This document shows, piece after piece, positions 15,242 to 58,317 of a stretch of 64,000 nucleotides of DNA (its first letter is position 1; each line of letters starts with the position of its first letter). The notes under the pieces are model-generated. The model was not told the DNA's origin and made no database searches. It saw only the letters and a list, made by a program, of their open reading frames with translations. A program made the translations under genes and the position numbers. Location of the stretch: the NCBI GenBank assembly GCA_947598155.1, contig CANQFC010000002.1, positions 62,001 to 126,000 on the forward strand, in the 5' to 3' direction. This DNA is from an uncultured Clostridia bacterium. Its GTDB lineage: Bacteria > Bacillota > Clostridia > Oscillospirales > Acutalibacteraceae.

Positions 15242-15270
15242 TTGACAAATATTAAAAAATAGAGTATTAT
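15242..15270 (+). promoter_or_regulatory. Promoter of the aromatic amino acid operon
   Basis: Perfect -35 TTGACA (15242-15247), 17-bp spacer, -10 TATTAT (15265-15270). Transcription would begin around 15277, just upstream of the leader peptide ribosome binding site. Confidence 0.85.
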
Positions 15271-15300
15271 ACCTTTAATTTCGTGAAAGGAGCGCTCATA

Positions 15301-15348
15301 ATGTTTTTTTATCGCTATTATTACTTCTTTATCAGTGCGATTGATTAA
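15301..15348 (+). CDS. Phe/Tyr-rich leader peptide of the aromatic operon
   Basis: A 15-residue open reading frame, MFFYRYYYFFISAID, with an excellent AAAGGAG site 8 nt before its ATG. Four Phe and four Tyr codons fall within codons 2-10. It lies between a consensus promoter and an intrinsic terminator directly ahead of pheA. In pheA, trp and his leaders of proteobacteria, stalling of the ribosome on scarce charged tRNA at such codons prevents terminator formation. The composition and position make the same role here very likely. The SD region AAGGAGCG can also pair with CGCTCTTT (15354-15361), which might limit leader translation. Confidence 0.88.
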   Translation: MFFYRYYYFFISAID

Positions 15349-15380
15349 ACATTACGCTCTTTATGCTTAAGTGTTTTTTC

Positions 15381-15420
15381 AACCGCTTATTTCGCTGTGA
15401 ATAAGCGGTTAATTTTTTTA
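15381..15420 (+). terminator. Attenuator terminator upstream of pheA
   Basis: A perfect 11-bp stem AACCGCTTATT / AATAAGCGGTT (15381-15391 / 15400-15410) with an 8-nt loop, then AA and seven T. A competing weaker helix TAAGTG (15368-15373) with CGCTTA (15384-15389) would disrupt the left arm and could act as antiterminator when the ribosome stalls on the leader peptide. The terminator is clear; the antiterminator is a proposal. Confidence 0.88.
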
Positions 15421-15435
15421 TTCAGAGGTGCAAAT

Positions 15436-16527
15436 ATGACCGACCTTGAAAATGCAAGGAAAACAATCGACGAAACAGACAGCGCAATAGCGGACCTTTT
15501 TATAAAAAGAATGAACGCAGTCAAAGTTGTTGCGAAGTATAAGGGCGAGCGCGGACTGCCGATTTTTGACGAGGAAAGAGAAAAAATTATTTTAAAGAAA
15601 AACGTTGAACGGCTTAACAGCGATGAGCTTAAATCGTATTACGATATACTGTTAAGAGCTTTTATTGACGTTTCAAAAAAATATCAGGAAAATCTGCTTT
15701 CGGGTATGAAAATTGCTTTCTGCGGAATTGAAGGAGCGTTTGCCGAAATTGCGGCAAAGAACATTTTCCCTCAGGGCAGAACGGTGTCTTTTTCTGATTT
15801 TGATTCCGCTTATAAATCGGTTTTAGACGGCGAATGCGACTGCTGTGTTCTGCCTATCGAGAACAGCTACGCGGGTGAGGTAGGGCAGGTAATTGACCTT
15901 ATGTTCAGCGGTGATTTAACTGTAAACGGCATTTATGATATGCCGGTTAAACAAAATCTTATCGGAGTAAAAGGCGCTTCGCTTTCAACTGTAAAAAAGG
16001 TTGTAAGCCATCCTCAGGCGCTTTCGCAGTGCAATGTTTATATAAAAGAGCACGGGTTTGTCAGCGAGCAGACCACAAATACAGCCGTTGCCGCAAGGCA
16101 GGTAGCTTCTCTTAACGATATATCCGTTGCGGCAATCGCAAGTAAAGAGACTGCGTCTGTTTACGGACTTGAGGTGATTGACCACGATATAAACGAAAGC
16201 GCTGTAAACACAACCAGATTTGCCGTATTTTCAAAATCAAAGGCAAACAACAGCAGTTCAAACGGAAAATTCATTTTGCTTTTCACGGTAAACAATGTCG
16301 TCGGCGCGCTTGCGAAGGCTGTTAATATTATTTGCGCTCACGGATTTAATATGCGAATACTCAGAAGCCGCCCCGTAAAAAATGTTCCTTGGCAATATTA
16401 TTTTTATGTTGAGGCCGAGGGCGACCAGAGCAGTGAGGAAGGCAAGAGAATGTTAAACGAGCTTTCCGTATGCTGTGAAAAATTAAAGGTTGCGGGCAAT
16501 TTTGCCGAAACAAAGTCTATTTTATAA
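15436..16527 (+). CDS. pheA: Bifunctional chorismate mutase / prephenate dehydratase (P-protein)
   Basis: 363 residues, converting chorismate to prephenate and then to phenylpyruvate. Domains: AroQ-type chorismate mutase about 1-85 (starting LENARKTIDETDSAIADLF); prephenate dehydratase about 92-270 with IEGAFAEIAA, DCCVLPIENSYAGEV, SHPQALSQC and NTTRFAVFS (the T-R-F catalytic motif); C-terminal ACT domain about 275-355 with VVGALAKAVN and LRSRPVKNVPWQYYFYVE. The usual ESRP allosteric motif reads RSRP here, so Phe feedback may be altered. The ATG at 15436 follows AGAGGTG. First structural gene after the attenuator. Confidence 0.95.
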   Translation: MTDLENARKTIDETDSAIADLFIKRMNAVKVVAKYKGERGLPIFDEEREKIILKKNVERLNSDELKSYYDILLRAFIDVSKKYQENLLSGMKIAFCGIEGAFAEIAAKNIFPQGRTVSFSDFDSAYKSVLDGECDCCVLPIENSYAGEVGQVIDLMFSGDLTVNGIYDMPVKQNLIGVKGASLSTVKKVVSHPQALSQCNVYIKEHGFVSEQTTNTAVAARQVASLNDISVAAIASKETASVYGLEVIDHDINESAVNTTRFAVFSKSKANNSSSNGKFILLFTVNNVVGALAKAVNIICAHGFNMRILRSRPVKNVPWQYYFYVEAEGDQSSEEGKRMLNELSVCCEKLKVAGNFAETKSIL

Positions 16528-16537
16528 GGTGATATAA

Positions 16538-17551
16538 ATGAAAACTCGGGTAAATTTGGGCGCGGACAGCTACGATATAATCATTGAACGCGGTTCAATC
16601 AATAAATTTGCCGATTTAGTTAATATAAAGGGTAAGGTTTTAATTGTGACCGACAGCGGCGTTCCGAAAAAATATTCGGACTGCTTGGCAAGTCAGTTTG
16701 ACGAGAGCTTTGTTTATACCGTTCCGGAAGGCGAACAAAGCAAAAGTCTTAACCGATTTGGCGAAATTCAGTCATTTTTGCTTGAAAAAGGTTTTACCCG
16801 TAAAGACAGCGTAATTGCCTGCGGAGGCGGAGTCCCGGGAGATCTTGCGGGGTTTGTTTCCGCCTGCTTTATGAGAGGGATAGACTTATACAATTTTCCT
16901 ACTACCGTTTTATCTCAGGTTGACTCGTCAATAGGCGGAAAAACGGCGGTTGACCTTGACGGAATAAAAAATATCGTAGGCGCGTTTCATCAGCCAAAGG
17001 CGGTAATTATTGACCCGGATGTGCTTTCAAGCCTGCCTACCCGTCAAATTTCAAACGGGCTTGCGGAAGCGGTAAAAATGAGCCTTACCTCCGACAGTGA
17101 GCTTTTTGAAATATTTGAAACGAAGGATATTCTTCAAAATATAGATGAAATACTGTTTAGGGCTATTGAAATAAAAAGAAAAGTCGTTGAGCGTGACGTA
17201 AAAGAATCCGGTCTTCGTATGATTCTGAATTTCGGCCATACAATCGGGCACGGCATTGAAAGCGAAGAGGGGCTTCACGGGCTTTATCACGGCGAATGTG
17301 TAGCGCTCGGTATGATTCCTATGTGCAGTGAATCCGTCCGTTCAAGGCTTGTTCCGGTTTTAAAGAAATTAAACCTCCCGACAGAGATTTCAATAGATAC
17401 CGAAAAAGTGATTTCGGCGGTTATTCATGACAAAAAAATGCGGGACAGCACCGTTAACGCCGTACTGGTTAATAATATAGGCTCATATGAAATAAGAAAA
17501 ATGACTGTAAATGAGATTGCGCAAAAGCTTCCTTTGGTTGTTAAGGAGTGA
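16538..17551 (+). CDS. aroB: 3-dehydroquinate synthase
   Basis: 337 residues. It converts DAHP to 3-dehydroquinate, with NAD and a divalent metal as cofactors. Motifs seen: VPEGEQSKSL, IACGGGVPGDLAGFVSACF (NAD-binding G-G-G-x-x-G-D), PTTVLSQVDSSIGGKTAVD, and the metal-ligand region ILNFGHTIGHGIE with GLYHGECVALGM. The length is slightly short but all catalytic segments are present. It lies 10 bp after pheA and 5 bp before aroC in the same operon. Confidence 0.95.
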   Translation: MKTRVNLGADSYDIIIERGSINKFADLVNIKGKVLIVTDSGVPKKYSDCLASQFDESFVYTVPEGEQSKSLNRFGEIQSFLLEKGFTRKDSVIACGGGVPGDLAGFVSACFMRGIDLYNFPTTVLSQVDSSIGGKTAVDLDGIKNIVGAFHQPKAVIIDPDVLSSLPTRQISNGLAEAVKMSLTSDSELFEIFETKDILQNIDEILFRAIEIKRKVVERDVKESGLRMILNFGHTIGHGIESEEGLHGLYHGECVALGMIPMCSESVRSRLVPVLKKLNLPTEISIDTEKVISAVIHDKKMRDSTVNAVLVNNIGSYEIRKMTVNEIAQKLPLVVKE

Positions 17552-17556
17552 GATAA

Positions 17557-18654
17557 ATGAAAAACACTTTCGGCCTGTCGGTCACATTAACCGTCTTTGG
17601 CGAGAGCCACGGTAAAGCGATAGGAGCGGTACTTGACGGCATCGCACCCGGAATAAAGATAGACGAAGAGTATATCCGCAAAAAAATGTGCCAGAGAATG
17701 CCTTACGGCAAAATTTCCACCGCCCGCCGAGAAGAGGACATACCCGAAATCTTGAGCGGAGTCTATAACGGCTTTACAACAGGCACGCCGATAGCCTTGG
17801 TCATAAAAAATACCGATATGCACAGCAAGGATTATGCGCTGACGCGTTCGCTTGCGAGGCCCGGGCATGCTGATTACACGGCATACCTTAAGTATCACGG
17901 CTTTGAAGATTTCAGAGGCGGCGGCCACTTCAGCGGCAGAATAACCGCGCCCGTCGTTGCCGCAGGCGCAATTTTGCTCAGCGCGTTAAAGAATAAGGGA
18001 ATATATATCGGCACTCATATAAAAAAATGTGCCGGCGTTTCCGACCGTGGCTTTGACGATATAAAGAACGATATATCCGCTCTTGACGGAAAAATTTTCT
18101 CCGTGCTTGACAGTGAAAAGGAAGATGAAATGAAAGCGGCTATTGAAAGAGCCGCGGAGAATAAAGACAGCGTAGGCGGAGTGCTTGAAACTGCCGTATA
18201 TGGTCTTTGCGCAGGCGTGGGCGAGCCTTGGTTCGATTCGCTTGAAAGCGTAATTTCCCACGCGGTTTTCGGTATGCCTGCCGTAAAGGGAATTGAGTTC
18301 GGCGCAGGGTTTGCTTTTGCCGACAAAACCGGCTTTGAGGCCAACGACCCGTTTTTACTTAAAAACGGCGAAATTATTACTTCAAGCAACAACAACGCAG
18401 GTATAAACGGCGGTATTTCAAACGGAATGCCGATAATATTCAGAACCGTTATTAAACCCACTCCGTCAATTTTCCAAAAGCAAAAAACTGTCGATTTTAT
18501 AAATAAAGAAAACGCGGAAATCGAGCTTCGTGGCAGGCATGACCCGTGCATAGTTCACCGCGCCGCCGTTGTGCAGGATTCATTGACTGCGCTTGCGGTT
18601 GCAGATATGCTGGCTCAGCGCTTTGGCACTGATTATTTGGGAAGTGATTTATAA
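17557..18654 (+). CDS. aroC: Chorismate synthase
   Basis: 365 residues. It makes chorismate from EPSP using reduced FMN. Family signatures: FGESHGKAIGAVLDG near the N-terminus, RPGHADYT, FRGGGHFSGRITAPVVAAGA, GIEFGAGF, and RHDPCIVHRAAVVQDS at the C-terminus. An AAGGAG site precedes the ATG. One base separates its stop from the aroE-aroK start. No flavin reductase domain is attached. Confidence 0.96.
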   Translation: MKNTFGLSVTLTVFGESHGKAIGAVLDGIAPGIKIDEEYIRKKMCQRMPYGKISTARREEDIPEILSGVYNGFTTGTPIALVIKNTDMHSKDYALTRSLARPGHADYTAYLKYHGFEDFRGGGHFSGRITAPVVAAGAILLSALKNKGIYIGTHIKKCAGVSDRGFDDIKNDISALDGKIFSVLDSEKEDEMKAAIERAAENKDSVGGVLETAVYGLCAGVGEPWFDSLESVISHAVFGMPAVKGIEFGAGFAFADKTGFEANDPFLLKNGEIITSSNNNAGINGGISNGMPIIFRTVIKPTPSIFQKQKTVDFINKENAEIELRGRHDPCIVHRAAVVQDSLTALAVADMLAQRFGTDYLGSDL

Positions 18655-18655
18655 A

Positions 18656-19912
18656 ATGGAATACGGATGCATCGGAAAAAAGCTTCCGCACTCATTTTCA
18701 AAAATAATACATGAAAAAATCGGCGGTTACTCTTATGAGCTTTGCGAGCTTACCGAAGACGAGTTGCCGGCATTTATGGAAAAAAGGGATTTTAAGGCGA
18801 TAAACGTCACTATTCCGTATAAGGAGGCCGTCATTCCGTATATTTATGAATTAAGCGGCACCGCCGAGAGCATCGGAGCGGTGAATACCATAGTCAATCG
18901 TGACGGCAAACTTTACGGTTATAATACCGATTTTTACGGAATGATTTCTCTTATTAAAAAGAATCATATTGATTTTAACGAAAAAAAGGTTGCGGTACTC
19001 GGCACAGGCGGAACCTCAAAGACAGCCGCCGCCGTTGCAAACAGTCTTAACGCTAAAGCCGTAATCAAAGTCAGCCGCAGAAAAGGTGAAAATTCGGTCA
19101 CTTATGATGAACTTTACGAAATTTATCGCGATACTGATATAATTATAAACACTACGCCTGTCGGTATGTTTCCTCAAATATACGATTCTCCCGTAAAAAC
19201 AGACCGTTTCTTACATCTTTCGGGAGTTATTGACGCGGTCTATAATCCCCTTGAAACTCAGCTTGTCGCCGACGCAAAATCACACGGAATTCCGGCTGAA
19301 GGCGGGCTTTATATGCTTGTCGCTCAGGCAATTAAGGCTTATGAGATTTTTATGGATAAAACTGCCGACAAAGATTTGCTTGACGTTATTTTCAACGATG
19401 TAAAATCTCAAAAGCAAAATATAGTTTTAATCGGAATGCCCGGAAGCGGTAAAACAACGATAGGACAAGCCGTTGCCGAAAAGCTCGGCAGGGATTTTTT
19501 TGACGCCGACGATGAAATAAAAAAGATAATTAAAATTGAAATTTCCGATTTCTTTTCTAAATACGGCGAAGAAAAATTTCGTGATATTGAAACAGAAGTT
19601 ATAAAAGACCTTTCAAAGCGTTCCGGGGCTGTAATAGCGACAGGCGGAGGAGCGGTTCTCCGCCGGGAAAATACAGACGCGCTTAAAATGAACGGAATTT
19701 TGTATTTCCTTGACAGACCGCTTGAGCAGATTGTTCCCACCTCTGACAGGCCGACAGCTTCAAGCGCCGAAGCGCTGAAAAAAAGGTATGATGAGAGATA
19801 CGGAATTTATTGCGGCTGTGCCGATAAAAACATTACAGTTACGGGAAATGTCCTCGACGCCGTAAAACAGATTGAAAGAGAGCATTTTAAAAATGAAAAT
19901 TCTTGTTATTAA
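18656..19912 (+). CDS. aroE/aroK: Fused shikimate dehydrogenase-shikimate kinase
   Basis: 418 residues with two enzymes in one chain. Residues about 1-255 are shikimate dehydrogenase: YGCIGKKLPHSFSK, NVTIPYKEAVIPY (catalytic Lys), GAVNTIV, YNTDFYG and the nucleotide loop VLGTGGTSKTAAAV. Residues about 257-418 are shikimate kinase: P-loop GMPGSGKTT near residue 260, FFDADDEI, FSKYGEEKFRDIE and ATGGGAVLRRE. So 3-dehydroshikimate is reduced and phosphorylated by one polypeptide. The ATG at 18656 restores the normal dehydrogenase N-terminus. Separate genes are the more usual bacterial arrangement. Its 3' end overlaps aroQ by 20 bp. Confidence 0.93.
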   Translation: MEYGCIGKKLPHSFSKIIHEKIGGYSYELCELTEDELPAFMEKRDFKAINVTIPYKEAVIPYIYELSGTAESIGAVNTIVNRDGKLYGYNTDFYGMISLIKKNHIDFNEKKVAVLGTGGTSKTAAAVANSLNAKAVIKVSRRKGENSVTYDELYEIYRDTDIIINTTPVGMFPQIYDSPVKTDRFLHLSGVIDAVYNPLETQLVADAKSHGIPAEGGLYMLVAQAIKAYEIFMDKTADKDLLDVIFNDVKSQKQNIVLIGMPGSGKTTIGQAVAEKLGRDFFDADDEIKKIIKIEISDFFSKYGEEKFRDIETEVIKDLSKRSGAVIATGGGAVLRRENTDALKMNGILYFLDRPLEQIVPTSDRPTASSAEALKKRYDERYGIYCGCADKNITVTGNVLDAVKQIEREHFKNENSCY

Positions 19913-20327
19913 CGGACCTAATCTGAATATGCTTGGCATTAGAGAGCCTAAGATTTACGGCTCGCAGACTTATGACGATTTGTGTCGGTTTATTTCGTCT
20001 TATTGCGATGAAATAGGCGTTTGCGTGGAATTTTATCAGTCCAACCACGAAGGCAGTCTTGTTGATAAAATTCAGGAGTCCTACGGAAAAATCGACGGTA
20101 TCGTCATAAATCCCGGCGCTTACACCCACACAAGCGTCGCACTGTTAGATGCCGTTAAAAGCGTCGGCATTCCTACCGTAGAGGTGCATATTTCCGACCC
20201 GGATACAAGAGAAAATTTCAGAAAAATAAGCTATATCCGCCTCGCTTGCGTTAAAACAGTTAAAGGACTCGGTTTTAAGGGATACACAGAGGCTATTGAT
20301 TTTTTGGTAAAAGGTAAACAGGTATGA
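19893..20327 (+). CDS. aroQ: 3-dehydroquinate dehydratase, type II
   Basis: 144 residues. It converts 3-dehydroquinate to 3-dehydroshikimate. The N-terminus MKILVINGPNLNMLGIREP and the segments FYQSNHEGSLVDKIQ, VINPGAYTHTSVALLDA and PTVEVHISDPDTRENFR are standard for the dodecameric type II enzyme. The catalytic Tyr would be in KIYGSQTYDDL and the catalytic His in VEVHISD. It starts inside aroE-aroK and its stop overlaps the aroA ATG (ATGA), so translation is likely coupled. Confidence 0.95.
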   Translation: MKILVINGPNLNMLGIREPKIYGSQTYDDLCRFISSYCDEIGVCVEFYQSNHEGSLVDKIQESYGKIDGIVINPGAYTHTSVALLDAVKSVGIPTVEVHISDPDTRENFRKISYIRLACVKTVKGLGFKGYTEAIDFLVKGKQV

Positions 20328-21532
20328 TTTTAACGATTAGTCCTTCAATGCCGAGCGGTGATATTACGGCTCCGCCCTCTAAGAGCTATGCTCACAGGGC
20401 TTTAATTTGCGCCGCCCTTTCCGTCGGTATGTCAAAAATAAGCAATATTGCTTTTTCTGACGATATTAAAGCCACTTTGAACTGTTTGTCCGCATTAGGA
20501 GCAAAAATTGAAATAGACGGCAACACAGCAAAAATTAAAGGAATAAACGGTTACTCGCATTTTAAAGACGCAGTGTTGAATTGCAATGAGAGCGGCAGTA
20601 CATTAAGGTTTTTTATTCCGATATGCCTTTTGTCAGACGATAAAATTACGTTAAAAGGCACCGAGAAACTCATTTCACGCCCGTTAAGCGTTTATGAAGA
20701 TATTGCAAAAAAGCAGGGGATATTCTTTAAAAAAGATATAAACAGCGTAACGGTTAAGGGCAAAATAAAGCCGTGCCGATTTGAGGTAAAAGGGAATATC
20801 AGCAGTCAGTTTATAAGCGGGTTATTATTTGCACTGCCTCTTTTGAAATCCGACAGCGAAATAAATATAATACCGCCGTTTGAAAGCAGACCGTATGTCG
20901 ATATGACGGTTGCGATTCTTAAACAATTCGGTATAGAGGTTGAATTTAACAGCTTTAACATAAAAATTAAGGGAAATCAGCAATACGTTCCGCGTGATAT
21001 ATCGGTTGAGGGCGACTGGTCAAACGCGTCTTTCCTTTACGCCTTTCGCGAGAGCGGCGCAAATATCCGCATACGTGGCGTTGATATGGATTCGTCGCAA
21101 GGGGATAAGGTTTGTTTGGAATATTTCAGCGCGCTAAAAAACGGAAAGCCTACGCTTGATTTAACCGATTGCCCCGATTTAGCTCCTATTATGTTCGCGT
21201 TTGCGGGTCTTAATAACGGCGCTGTTTTTACGGGAACTGACAGATTAAGATTTAAAGAGAGCGACAGAATAGCCTGTATGCAGGAGGAACTTGCTAAATT
21301 CGGTATAATTCTTACTCCGAGGAAAAACTCTGTTTTAATCGACTCAACGGACTTTCACGCTCCTTCCGGCGTTATTTTCGGTCACAACGACCATCGAATT
21401 GTAATGGCAAACGCATTTCTTCTTTGTAAGACGGGCGGAAAAATTGACGGCTTTGAGGCGGTCAAAAAGAGTTATCCGAATTTTTTTGATATTATTATGA
21501 AAGCCGGTGTAATGCTTAATTATGAAACTTGA
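20324..21532 (+). CDS. aroA: 3-phosphoshikimate 1-carboxyvinyltransferase (EPSP synthase)
   Basis: 402 residues. It joins shikimate 3-phosphate and phosphoenolpyruvate to form EPSP. Seen: APPSKSYAHRALICAALS (phosphoshikimate binding), NESGSTLRFFIPI (the G-S-T-x-R loop), SSQFISGLLFALPLL, GDWSNASF, DLAPIMFAFA, RLRFKESDRI and HNDHRIVMANAFL. It is somewhat shorter than the usual 420-430 residues. Overlaps aroQ upstream by 4 bp and tyrA downstream by 11 bp. Confidence 0.95.
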   Translation: MILTISPSMPSGDITAPPSKSYAHRALICAALSVGMSKISNIAFSDDIKATLNCLSALGAKIEIDGNTAKIKGINGYSHFKDAVLNCNESGSTLRFFIPICLLSDDKITLKGTEKLISRPLSVYEDIAKKQGIFFKKDINSVTVKGKIKPCRFEVKGNISSQFISGLLFALPLLKSDSEINIIPPFESRPYVDMTVAILKQFGIEVEFNSFNIKIKGNQQYVPRDISVEGDWSNASFLYAFRESGANIRIRGVDMDSSQGDKVCLEYFSALKNGKPTLDLTDCPDLAPIMFAFAGLNNGAVFTGTDRLRFKESDRIACMQEELAKFGIILTPRKNSVLIDSTDFHAPSGVIFGHNDHRIVMANAFLLCKTGGKIDGFEAVKKSYPNFFDIIMKAGVMLNYET

Positions 21533-22376
21533 TAAAAACTTAAACATACTCATTGTAGGTCTCGGACTTATCGGCGGAAGCTATGCTATGGGACTTCACA
21601 AAAAAGGATATAAAATTTCGGCGATTGACGTAAATGAAAATTCGGTTAAATACGCCCTTTCGCACAATATGATTGACAGCGGTTCGGCGGAAATTGACGA
21701 AAGTTTGATTTCATCGGCCGATTTAATAATTTTTGCGCTTTATCCGCACATTTTTCTTGATTGGATTAAGCAAAATCAGCATTTGTTTAAAAGCGGAGCA
21801 GTGATAACGGATGTTACGGGCGTAAAATCGTGTATTGTTTATGAAATACAAGGCGATTTGAGAAAAGATGTTGAGTTTATCGCGGCGCACCCTATGGCAG
21901 GTAAAGAGGTTTACGGAGTAGAAAACGCCGATGATTCAATATTTAAGGAAGCAAACTACATTGTAGTTCCGACTGACTCAAATACATTTAACGCCATTGA
22001 AATTTGTAAGGCAATAGGCGAAACTCTCGGATTTGCAAGAATTTCGTCTTTGCCGCCTAAAGCGCACGATGAAATGATAGGTTTTGTATCGCAACTAACG
22101 CACTGCATCGCGATTTGCCTTATGACGTGCTCAAAAAGCGAGCATCTTGTCGATTACACCGGCGATTCTTTCAGAGATTTAACAAGAATTGCCAGAATAA
22201 ACGAAAATATGTGGAGCGAGCTCTTTTTATTAAATAAAGACGCTCTGCTTATGCAGATGGAAATCTTTATGTCGGAATTTAACGAATTTTACGAACTTCT
22301 AAAAAATGAAGATACGGAAAAAATGAAAGAAAAAATGAAACAATCTACCGCTCGCAGAGCGTTGTTTGATAAATAA
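21522..22376 (+). CDS. tyrA: Prephenate dehydrogenase
   Basis: 284 residues. It oxidises prephenate to 4-hydroxyphenylpyruvate, the tyrosine branch. The NAD-binding motif LIVGLGLIGGSYAMGL is at the N-terminus, followed by VTGVKSCIV, AAHPMAGKEVYGVENAD (catalytic His region) and FVSQLTHCIA. There is no C-terminal ACT domain and no fused chorismate mutase, so it depends on the mutase of PheA for prephenate. It overlaps aroA by 11 bp and precedes the DAHP synthase gene by 14 bp. Confidence 0.93.
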   Translation: MKLDKNLNILIVGLGLIGGSYAMGLHKKGYKISAIDVNENSVKYALSHNMIDSGSAEIDESLISSADLIIFALYPHIFLDWIKQNQHLFKSGAVITDVTGVKSCIVYEIQGDLRKDVEFIAAHPMAGKEVYGVENADDSIFKEANYIVVPTDSNTFNAIEICKAIGETLGFARISSLPPKAHDEMIGFVSQLTHCIAICLMTCSKSEHLVDYTGDSFRDLTRIARINENMWSELFLLNKDALLMQMEIFMSEFNEFYELLKNEDTEKMKEKMKQSTARRALFDK

Positions 22377-22390
22377 AAGGAGGATTTTTT

Positions 22391-23419
22391 ATGAATATGA
22401 TTTTTGAAAGAAAGCTCGCGATTCCTCAGGAGGTAAAACAGATGTACCCCGCGTCCGCTGAAATTCAAACTGCGGTTGAGGAGCGCTCAAAGGAGCTTAA
22501 AGATATATTTGCGGGAAAAAGCGATAAGTTTATACTTATCATCGGGCCTTGTTCCGCCGACCGTGACGACAGCGTGTTAGACTATATCGGAAGGCTTAGA
22601 GAAATACAGGAAAAGGTCAAAGATAAAATTTTTATCGTTCCGAGAATATACACTAACAAGCCCCGCACAACGGGCGACGGCTATAAGGGAATGCTGCATC
22701 AGCCGGACCCCGACCAAAAGCCGGATATGTTCAAAGGCATCGTCGCTATTAGGGAACTTCATATGAAGGCCATTAAAGAAACGGGTTTTGTCTGTGCAGA
22801 TGAGATGCTTTATCCCGAAAATTCAAAATATCTTGACGACCTGCTCGGCTACATCGCAGTAGGCGCAAGAAGTGTTGAAAATCAGCAGCACAGACTTACG
22901 GCAAGCGGTTTTGACATTCCTGTCGGTATGAAAAACCCTACAAGCGGAGACCTTTCGGTTATGATGAATTCCATTACCGCCGCTCAGCATAAACATACGT
23001 TTATTTTCAGAGGATGGGAGGTTCACTCCGAAGGCAATGAATATGCTCACGCAATACTGCGCGGATATGTTAACAAACACGGGCAGTCTATGCCAAACTA
23101 CCATTACGAAGACCTTGTCCATCTGAATGATTTATACCAAAAATCGGGTCTTTTGAACCCTGCTTTAATTATTGACGCCAATCACTCAAATTCGGGCAAA
23201 GACCCGATACAGCAAATCAGAATTGCAAAAGAAATTATCAACAGTATGCGTTACAATTCTGAGATTAACAAGCTCGTCAAGGGACTTATGATTGAAAGCT
23301 ATATTGAGGACGGCAACCAGCCTATCGGATGCGGAATTTACGGTAAATCAATCACCGACGCGTGCCTTGGCTGGGAAAAATCCGAAAAGCTTATTTTGGA
23401 TATTGCGGACAAGTTATAA
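22391..23419 (+). CDS. aroF: 3-deoxy-7-phosphoheptulonate (DAHP) synthase, class I
   Basis: 342 residues. The first committed step, condensing PEP with erythrose 4-phosphate. Motifs: LIIGPCSADRDD, VPRIYTNKPRTTGDGYKGM, ADEMLYPENSKYLDDLLGYIAVGARSVENQQHR, VGMKNPTSGDLSVMMN, IIDANHSNSGKDP and MIESYIEDGNQPI. It is the AroFGH-type class I-alpha enzyme, usually feedback-inhibited by an aromatic amino acid. Last gene of the operon, after AAAAGGAGG, and followed by a strong terminator. So the pathway entry enzyme is under the same attenuator as the branch enzymes. Confidence 0.95.
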   Translation: MNMIFERKLAIPQEVKQMYPASAEIQTAVEERSKELKDIFAGKSDKFILIIGPCSADRDDSVLDYIGRLREIQEKVKDKIFIVPRIYTNKPRTTGDGYKGMLHQPDPDQKPDMFKGIVAIRELHMKAIKETGFVCADEMLYPENSKYLDDLLGYIAVGARSVENQQHRLTASGFDIPVGMKNPTSGDLSVMMNSITAAQHKHTFIFRGWEVHSEGNEYAHAILRGYVNKHGQSMPNYHYEDLVHLNDLYQKSGLLNPALIIDANHSNSGKDPIQQIRIAKEIINSMRYNSEINKLVKGLMIESYIEDGNQPIGCGIYGKSITDACLGWEKSEKLILDIADKL

Positions 23420-53240: not shown

Positions 53241-53244
53241 ATAC

Positions 53245-53477
53245 TTACGATTGAGGCGCAGTAAATATCAGTATGCCGTTTGAATCTTTCAGGAGCTTGA
53301 GAGAACGGTCAAAAAGGATTTATTGCCGAAGCTTTTGTCCGCCTGAACGCTCAAAGGCTGGTTGCATCATTAACAGTGATGTGACTGTCATCATTTGATG
53401 GAGTGCTTTCGTATTATTGATTCGTCGTAATACTAAAACCTTATCAGTAATGATGACATATCATTACTGATTTTTTA
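53245..53477 (+). promoter_or_regulatory. Lysine riboswitch (L box) with terminator
   Basis: The aptamer is recognised by the conserved GAGGCGCAGTA near the 5' side, GCCGAAGC in the middle and GGCTGGTTG later. P1 can form from TTACGA (53245-53250) and TCGTAA (53425-53430). A terminator follows, ATCAGTAATGAT / ATCATTACTGAT (53443-53471) with TTTTT. By established mechanism, lysine binding favours termination ahead of asd-dapA-dapB. Sequence elements seen; exact helix borders approximate. Confidence 0.93.
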
Positions 53478-58061: not shown

Positions 58062-58311
58062 AAAAATAAATCCCCTGCGAAAGCAGAGGACGAAAAACCG
58101 TGGTACCACCTCAATTTACCGTTTCTCACGAAATACGGCCTTAACGGGTAACTGACATTACCCTGTTCTGTAACGGGAACGCCCGTTTGCCCCTACTGAT
58201 TTTCAGGGCAACAACTCAACGATGTATTTCACAGCGCCGCCATATTTTCTTACACCAACCGAAAACTCTCTGTAATTTTGGCAAAAGCTACTTCTTCGTG
58301 TCACAGTCTTT
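58062..58311 (-). promoter_or_regulatory. T-box riboswitch with Tyr (UAC) specifier, upstream of tyrS
   Basis: Minus strand contains the T-box AGGTGGTACCACGG (58098-58111), the antiterminator core that pairs with uncharged tRNA, and a terminator TCCTCTGC / GCAGGGGA (58071-58090) followed by ATTTATTTTTT. In stem I the specifier loop GAAATACATC has UAC as the codon (complement of 58224-58226). Uncharged tRNA-Tyr would allow read-through into tyrS. Confidence 0.95.
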
Positions 58312-58317
58312 AAAAAT

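Follow-up and report, generated by a model that had tools for sequence, protein, structure and literature searches.

A Putative Attenuator with a Mixed Phe/Tyr Leader Peptide ahead of the pheA Operon and Its Occurrence in Clostridia

Introduction

How a bacterium might adjust one operon that serves two end products is the question raised by a locus of an uncultured Clostridia bacterium, in which a short reading frame rich in phenylalanine and tyrosine codons precedes the pheA operon. The genome comprises 2.1 Mb in 33 contigs, and the window, that is, the whole stretch of 64,000 nucleotides that was analysed, is situated on contig 2; the named records that come nearest are metagenome assemblies carrying the label Oscillospiraceae, Ruminococcaceae or Clostridia. 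Leader attenuators of the pheA, trp and his operons are familiar from proteobacteria, as are the multivalent thr and ilv leaders from enterobacteria. A first-pass annotation of the window had proposed that the locus is governed by ribosome-mediated attenuation reading both Phe and Tyr codons. Herein, this proposal is weighed against its alternatives and followed into related genomes.

Organization of the Leader and the Operon

All features described below lie on the plus strand unless otherwise indicated. The promoter, Shine-Dalgarno sequence, Phe/Tyr-rich ORF and terminator that had been reported ahead of pheA were all recovered at 15242-15436 by direct reading. The stretch 15242..15270, which we take to be the promoter from its agreement with the -35/-10 consensus, consists of TTGACA (15242-15247), a 17-bp spacer and TATTAT (15265-15270). 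It is followed by the Shine-Dalgarno stretch GAAAGGAG (15285..15292) and the leader ORF MFFYRYYYFFISAID (15301..15348, stop included), which was read directly and compared with the leaders of relatives. The nine control codons (codons 2-10, 15304..15330) read F F Y R Y Y Y F F, in agreement with the earlier count of eight Phe/Tyr codons in nine positions. The intrinsic terminator at 15381..15419, recognised from sequence and fold only, is built from arms at 15381-15392 and 15399-15410 and a T7 tract at 15413-15419, and its stem, formerly given as 11 bp, holds 11 Watson-Crick pairs plus one U-G pair. As in an attenuator, a Shine-Dalgarno-led short ORF lies between the promoter and the first gene, its codon run corresponds to both amino acids made by the operon, and the terminator stands ahead of the first gene.

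The operon begins with pheA (15436..16527, ATG at 15436), encoding a chorismate mutase-prephenate dehydratase, which is followed by aroB (16538..17551), aroC (17557..18654), an aroE-aroK fusion combining shikimate dehydrogenase and shikimate kinase in one ORF (18656..19912, start chosen by eye, listed ORF from 18593), aroQ for a type II dehydroquinase (19893..20327, start chosen by eye, listed ORF from 19872), aroA (20324..21532), tyrA for prephenate dehydrogenase (21522..22376) and a DAHP synthase gene of the AroFGH type (22391..23419). The seven genes behind pheA are arranged with no gap exceeding about 15 nt. A full shikimate-Phe-Tyr operon of eight genes is thus present, DAHP synthase included, and the gene identities are as the first-pass annotation had given them.

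Chance Controls

Phe and Tyr codons are all of the form TWY and the leader region is AT-rich, and AT-rich DNA might yield such ORFs by chance. When the 300 nt before pheA were dinucleotide-shuffled 20,000 times, however, the best Shine-Dalgarno-led short ORF attained at most six Phe/Tyr codons in nine positions against eight of nine in the real leader, none being as rich, and at least five of nine were reached in 33 shuffles. The fold of 15277-15420 gave z = -4.9, with 0 of 200 shuffles equally stable. Among 102 pheA loci (what remains of 110 once 8 exact duplicates are removed; the window counts as one), 33 carry a Shine-Dalgarno-led ORF with at least five Phe/Tyr codons in nine within 300 nt, where 0.1 would be expected from shuffles; the same scan of the minus strand returned none, and a scan of the whole loci for ORFs with at least six Phe/Tyr codons found none on any minus strand. 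The leader lies far beyond chance; an origin by chance is refuted by the shuffles and retains practically no probability.

In a looser 1.5-kb scan, performed without shuffle control, Phe/Tyr leaders were located at 49 of the 102 loci. Six loci possess a gene of 343-387 codons before pheA, and there the leader is found 1.2-1.5 kb upstream, ahead of that gene, which is a DAHP synthase gene by its printed start in five of them (L012, L061, L094, L105 and L110); the reading did not reach that of L111.

Alternative Pairings and the Proposed Mechanism

The attenuation proposal is strengthened by an element that the first-pass annotation had not named, namely an antiterminator excluding the terminator, which lies directly behind the codon run and is conserved. 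Its first strand (15337..15353) is made up of the codons behind the run, the stop codon and 5 nt further, and its second strand (15369..15386) overlaps the 5' arm of the terminator. The register consists of three pairs, an A.C mismatch, four pairs, two U.U and seven pairs, and the predicted energies are -13.5 kcal/mol for the antiterminator versus -14.7 kcal/mol for the terminator, which share the terminator 5' arm.

Equilibrium folding of the whole leader displays no switch, and the folding of nascent RNA with ribosome edges is required to reveal it; for a stall at a given codon, the ribosome footprint puts the edge 12 nt downstream of where the A-site codon begins. For nascent RNA ending at 15398, the antiterminator probability is 0.95-0.98 with the edge at 15318-15336, the upper part alone is formed (0.86) with the edge at 15340, and the value is 0 with the edge at 15346 or beyond. 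Without a ribosome, it amounts to 0.18 when folding starts from 15293 and 0.00 when it starts from the Shine-Dalgarno sequence. In the predicted ribosome-free fold (15287..15362), 15287-15294 and 15299-15306, which hold the Shine-Dalgarno sequence and the start codon, are paired with 15347-15362 and 15309-15315 with 15337-15344, by which the antiterminator is disfavoured. Under the 12-nt edge, strand 1 would remain free in a stall at any of six of the eight control codons (F2 to Y8); with the ribosome at the stop, all of 15337-15344 would be covered. The exclusion of the terminator is accordingly predicted by folding to depend on ribosome position, and the pairing is kept in relatives.

Very probably, therefore, given these features and those of the relatives described below, the locus is a ribosome-mediated transcription attenuator whose sensor would be the mixed Phe/Tyr leader peptide. 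A ribosome would load near 15285 and translate MFFYRYYYFFISAID behind RNA polymerase. When charged tRNA-Phe or tRNA-Tyr is short, it would halt on a control codon, and a halt at F2 to Y8 would uncover 15337-15353, which could then pair with 15369-15386 and take the terminator 5' arm, so that polymerase would go on to transcribe pheA and the rest of the eight-gene operon. With both charged tRNAs plentiful, the ribosome would reach the stop at 15346 and cover 15337-15344, and the terminator would form. If no ribosome is present, the Shine-Dalgarno region and the run would fold onto 15337-15362; because this fold disfavours the antiterminator, the window leader should by default keep the operon off. 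A shortage of either charged tRNA being enough, the leader would be expected to behave as an OR gate on the two end products of the common pathway; genes devoted to a single amino acid have T-boxes in this genome. Translation, stalling, termination or read-through and the sensing of both amino acids are thus what we infer from the sequence.

A narrower possibility is that attenuation is real and effectively reads just one of the two amino acids. Some control codons of known attenuators weigh more than others, and in the window a stall at F10 would cover part of strand 1 and a stall at F9 its first base only. Nevertheless, the six freeing codons of the window comprise two Phe and four Tyr codons, and at least two Phe and at least two Tyr codons are found ahead of strand 1 in all 51 aligned leaders (28 of class I and 23 of class II, see below), which makes a one-amino-acid reading unlikely.

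Conservation and Covariation in Relatives

Conservation of the peptide in close relatives had been set beforehand as a test by which the proposal could fail, and the result speaks for it: the leader peptides of close relatives (MFFYRYYYFFINAID, MFFNCYFYYYFISAID, MFFNCYYYFYFISAID, MFFYCYYFYFFKNAID and MFKKRYYFIFSSVME) vary, and the Phe/Tyr run is kept. In the four close pairs compared, most codon changes within the run are silent or exchange one of the two amino acids for the other. Such a leader, conserved in relatives while its peptide drifts, is what an attenuator should leave.

The class I alignment (A1) covers 28 of 32 class I leaders, with the window standing for L002 and L035, L036 and L038 for L005, L007 and L008; L006, L009 and L067 were left out as near copies, and L082 because its arms differ. 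Across these 28 rows, the core GCGATGGA is paired with TCCACCGC in 85.7% of cells, compared with 26-56% when slid. Two-sided changes are represented by GC to UA, shared by five window-group rows, and CG to UA in L038 only, and the terminator stem covaries too; the pair count was reached in 27 of 500 shuffles and the pair-type count in 296 of 500. Exactly one mismatch occurs within the first seven antiterminator pairs in 28 of 28 rows, being A.C at pair 4 in 26 of them and falling on pair 5 in L044 and L070, where pair 4 is G-C. The idea of a universal antiterminator mismatch was dropped, since L082 pairs ACGATG with CATCGT without one (by eye) and the mismatch is absent from that place in 5 of 23 class II rows.

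The class II alignment (A3) has 23 rows, consisting of the 8 rows of an earlier alignment (A2) and 15 of 17 matches to the class II covariance model R2, from which L140 and L144 were omitted as copies; four later R2 matches and six new matches to the class I model R1 stand outside all alignments. In A3, the core GGGCTGcCCGT is paired with ACGGaCAGTCC in 86.2% of cells, compared with 26-39% when slid, and shuffles reach the two covariation counts in 367 and 455 of 500. The 8-row A2 had been no better than shuffles (449, 63 and 500 of 500). As judged from these alignments, the antiterminator pairing is kept with a few compensatory changes, and independent covariation events are few.

The residues behind the run look conserved as well (Ala-Met-Asp in class I, Gly-Cys-Pro in class II), as might be expected if the nascent peptide itself were the sensor, with free Phe/Tyr or the chain arresting the ribosome in a TnaC-like manner and the aromatic residues acting as contacts, not as codons. 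These residues, however, coincide with the antiterminator strand, which L141 and L147 read in another frame as Arg-Ala-Ala-Arg instead of Gly-Cys-Pro; the strand is therefore conserved as RNA, and nascent-peptide arrest is set aside for the same reason. Phe and Tyr moreover swap freely in the run among close relatives, so that the conserved arrest residues of a TnaC-like leader are not found at the peptide level, and arrest by product would, with such a layout, switch the operon on when the product is plentiful. A peptide sensor is thus very improbable. Ribosome-mediated attenuation, as the first-pass annotation had it, is the best-supported mechanism by virtue of the anatomy, the alternative pairings and the conservation, to which the sequences add some covariation and an association with aromatic genes.

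With strand 1 free, the predicted antiterminator probability is no lower than 0.98 in any of the 28 aligned class I leaders; the value of zero with the ribosome at the stop is by construction, the strand then being outside the folded piece. In most leaders (21 of 28 in class I, 16 of 23 in class II), a ribosome at the stop would be too far downstream to cover the strand, and we infer that in these it would block pairing by standing between the arms. Of the 28 class I leaders, 17 favour the antiterminator already as ribosome-free RNA, and only 5 have a terminator that is the more stable structure. By these predictions, the off default of the window leader is not general among relatives.

A third leader group, assigned by duplex prediction only and without shuffle control, includes L054, L056, L057 (two leaders), L058, L062, L068, L075, L076, L092 and L096. 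No terminator was found in L013, which was placed with this group, and no clear Shine-Dalgarno sequence in L054 and L058. L057 exhibits two tandem Phe/Tyr-rich leaders, which lie 491 and 295 nt upstream of pheA and have a terminator each. L054 and L058, in which a third-group ORF rich in Phe/Tyr stands before a pheA 60% identical to that of the window, come from records labelled Spirochaetaceae and Treponema, which points to either transfer or mislabelled bins.

T-Boxes and Other RNA Sensors

Ten T-box matches were detected in the genome, five of them above the Rfam cut-off. The genes that follow the ten include tyrS, pheS, trpE, a TrpX-like gene and a leuA-like gene, and the specifiers TAC, TTC and TGG were read by eye. 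The trpE T-box is below the cut-off, the trpE reading is cut by the locus end, and the trpE, TrpX and leuA protein scores fall below the family cut-offs. The window itself contains a T-box before tyrS (58083-58313, minus strand, 123.5 bits, specifier TAC by eye) and a lysine riboswitch (53243-53416, 95.7 bits).

With so many RNA sensors at hand, the terminator before pheA could be controlled by a T-box or a riboswitch, known or unknown, the ORF being incidental. Against this, T-box RF00230 gave no match at 15242-15436, and no Rfam 15 family reached its curated threshold at the window leader or at the loci of 20 relatives; a T-box, a riboswitch or another Rfam family at the leader was rejected accordingly. 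The leader offers little room outside the ORF and the terminator, and the Phe/Tyr run is common to leaders with differing pairing strands. An RNA sensor of this kind is very unlikely.

Genes Located behind Such Leaders

Both covariance models were searched with strict filters. Among 394 genomes of the order and 391 of the class, R1, the class I model, matched in 6 each, giving 11 distinct matches, of which five are the window, three training rows and one near copy and six are new; the new ones precede pheA (2), a PaaK-like ligase gene (2) and a gene for a TrpX-like protein (2). In the genome of the window, R1 found the 15242-15420 leader alone, the next match having E = 0.98. R2 matched in 17 of 394 and 5 of 381 genomes with 21 distinct matches, one of them a training row, which precede genes for DAHP synthase (8), pheA (8) and a PLP aminotransferase (5). 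Every match of either model lies before an aromatic-type gene. The match rates are low and refer to samples searched under these strict filters.

Of the five aminotransferases, three were identified by NCBIfam, as were one pheA and one DAHP synthase; the other proteins are named by their beginnings. The three aminotransferases scanned belong to PRK06836, above the cut-off, and from their context the enzyme is probably aromatic. One of the two PaaK-like ligases was scanned and scored 522 bits versus a cut-off of 646, and the TrpX-like proteins behind R1 leaders scored 305 and 293 bits versus a cut-off of 390. Genome G775 combines a class I leader before a TrpX-like gene with a class II leader before pheA.

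At L132 (G620) and L133 (G535), a Phe/Tyr leader is placed before a gene for a PaaK-like phenylacetate-CoA ligase. Rumen bacteria make Phe from phenylacetate, and the leader at these two loci might relate to such a route.

Other Control of pheA and Its Distribution

A palindrome of the type GTTAACxxTGTTAAC occurs 28-49 nt before pheA in 9 of 102 loci (L060, L066, L069, L074, L077, L084, L088, L090 and L107). None of these nine carries a Phe/Tyr leader, versus 49 of 102 loci overall (hypergeometric P 0.002, with loci treated as independent), and a repressor perhaps replaces the attenuator there; in L074, L088 and L107, the divergent gene is TetR-like by eye. Neither leader nor GTTAAC operator was found by the loose 1.5-kb scan in 44 of 102 loci, some of which have another gene directly upstream of pheA. 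Among the same-genus genomes G001-G035, pheA of the window type is present at 76-91% identity in seven and at 50-51% in three, and most of the others hold only a remote pheA near 30% identity, a pattern that may reflect exchange of the operon between members of the genus.

Relation to Known Systems and Significance

Like the proteobacterial and enterobacterial leaders, the present one couples a short ORF with control codons to a mutually exclusive terminator and antiterminator, and the multivalent ones among them also read more than one amino acid. It is distinguished from them by mixed and balanced Phe and Tyr codons, by an antiterminator strand directly behind the run, by a whole shikimate-Phe-Tyr operon downstream and by the lack of an Rfam family match. 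T-box riboswitches (RF00230) likewise read tRNA charging and control a terminator; unlike the leader, they bind one tRNA directly, and none is found at the pheA operon.

Leader-peptide attenuators have already been published for Firmicutes. For the his genes they are described, antiterminators included, in the Bacillus cereus group, C. difficile relatives and Erysipelotrichales (PMC9413887); bacilli have hisZ/hisS leaders (PMC2965389). Both kinds share an ordinary leader peptide and a terminator with the present leader and differ in addressing a single amino acid and other genes. In the S. aureus ilv-leu operon, a leucine-rich attenuator peptide with Leu and Ile codons has genetic support (PMC5794164), which is likewise leader-peptide attenuation in a Firmicute and differs in its branched-chain amino acids and its sequence. 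The candidate uORFC-13-1, given for Acholeplasma and environmental sequences only, is a leader ORF with at least one Phe before aroF, a DAHP synthase gene, together with a terminator; no Tyr run or pheA operon forms part of the description consulted, by which it is set apart (PMC8632094). Eight uORF candidates are presented in PMC11109978, the main text of which contains no phenylalanine, tyrosine or pheA. Among the full-text matches listed, with subscription literature mostly outside, no Phe/Tyr leader in Clostridia was recognisable by title, counts or abstract start. Measured against this literature, the two-amino-acid Phe/Tyr variant with its likely regulon is new.

Taken jointly, the observations incline us, with some reserve, toward an undescribed Phe/Tyr attenuator regulon of Clostridia with one modular design, in which an antiterminator strand, usually with one mismatch, comes directly after a balanced set of Phe and Tyr codons. 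It would control pheA operons, DAHP synthase, an aminotransferase that is probably aromatic, a PaaK-like ligase and a TrpX-type transporter through at least two, probably three, unrelated antiterminator sequences, would read two tRNAs as an OR gate, and would divide the task with T-boxes of the same cell that read a single tRNA each.

The RNA group is absent from Rfam 15, and a Phe/Tyr role is indicated for the PaaK-like, aminotransferase and TrpX-like genes behind such leaders. The finding suggests how a T-box-rich lineage handles a pathway with two end products, as a T-box reads one tRNA and a mixed leader can read two, and it sets out a testable rule, namely a mixed leader for the shared pathway and T-boxes for single-amino-acid genes.
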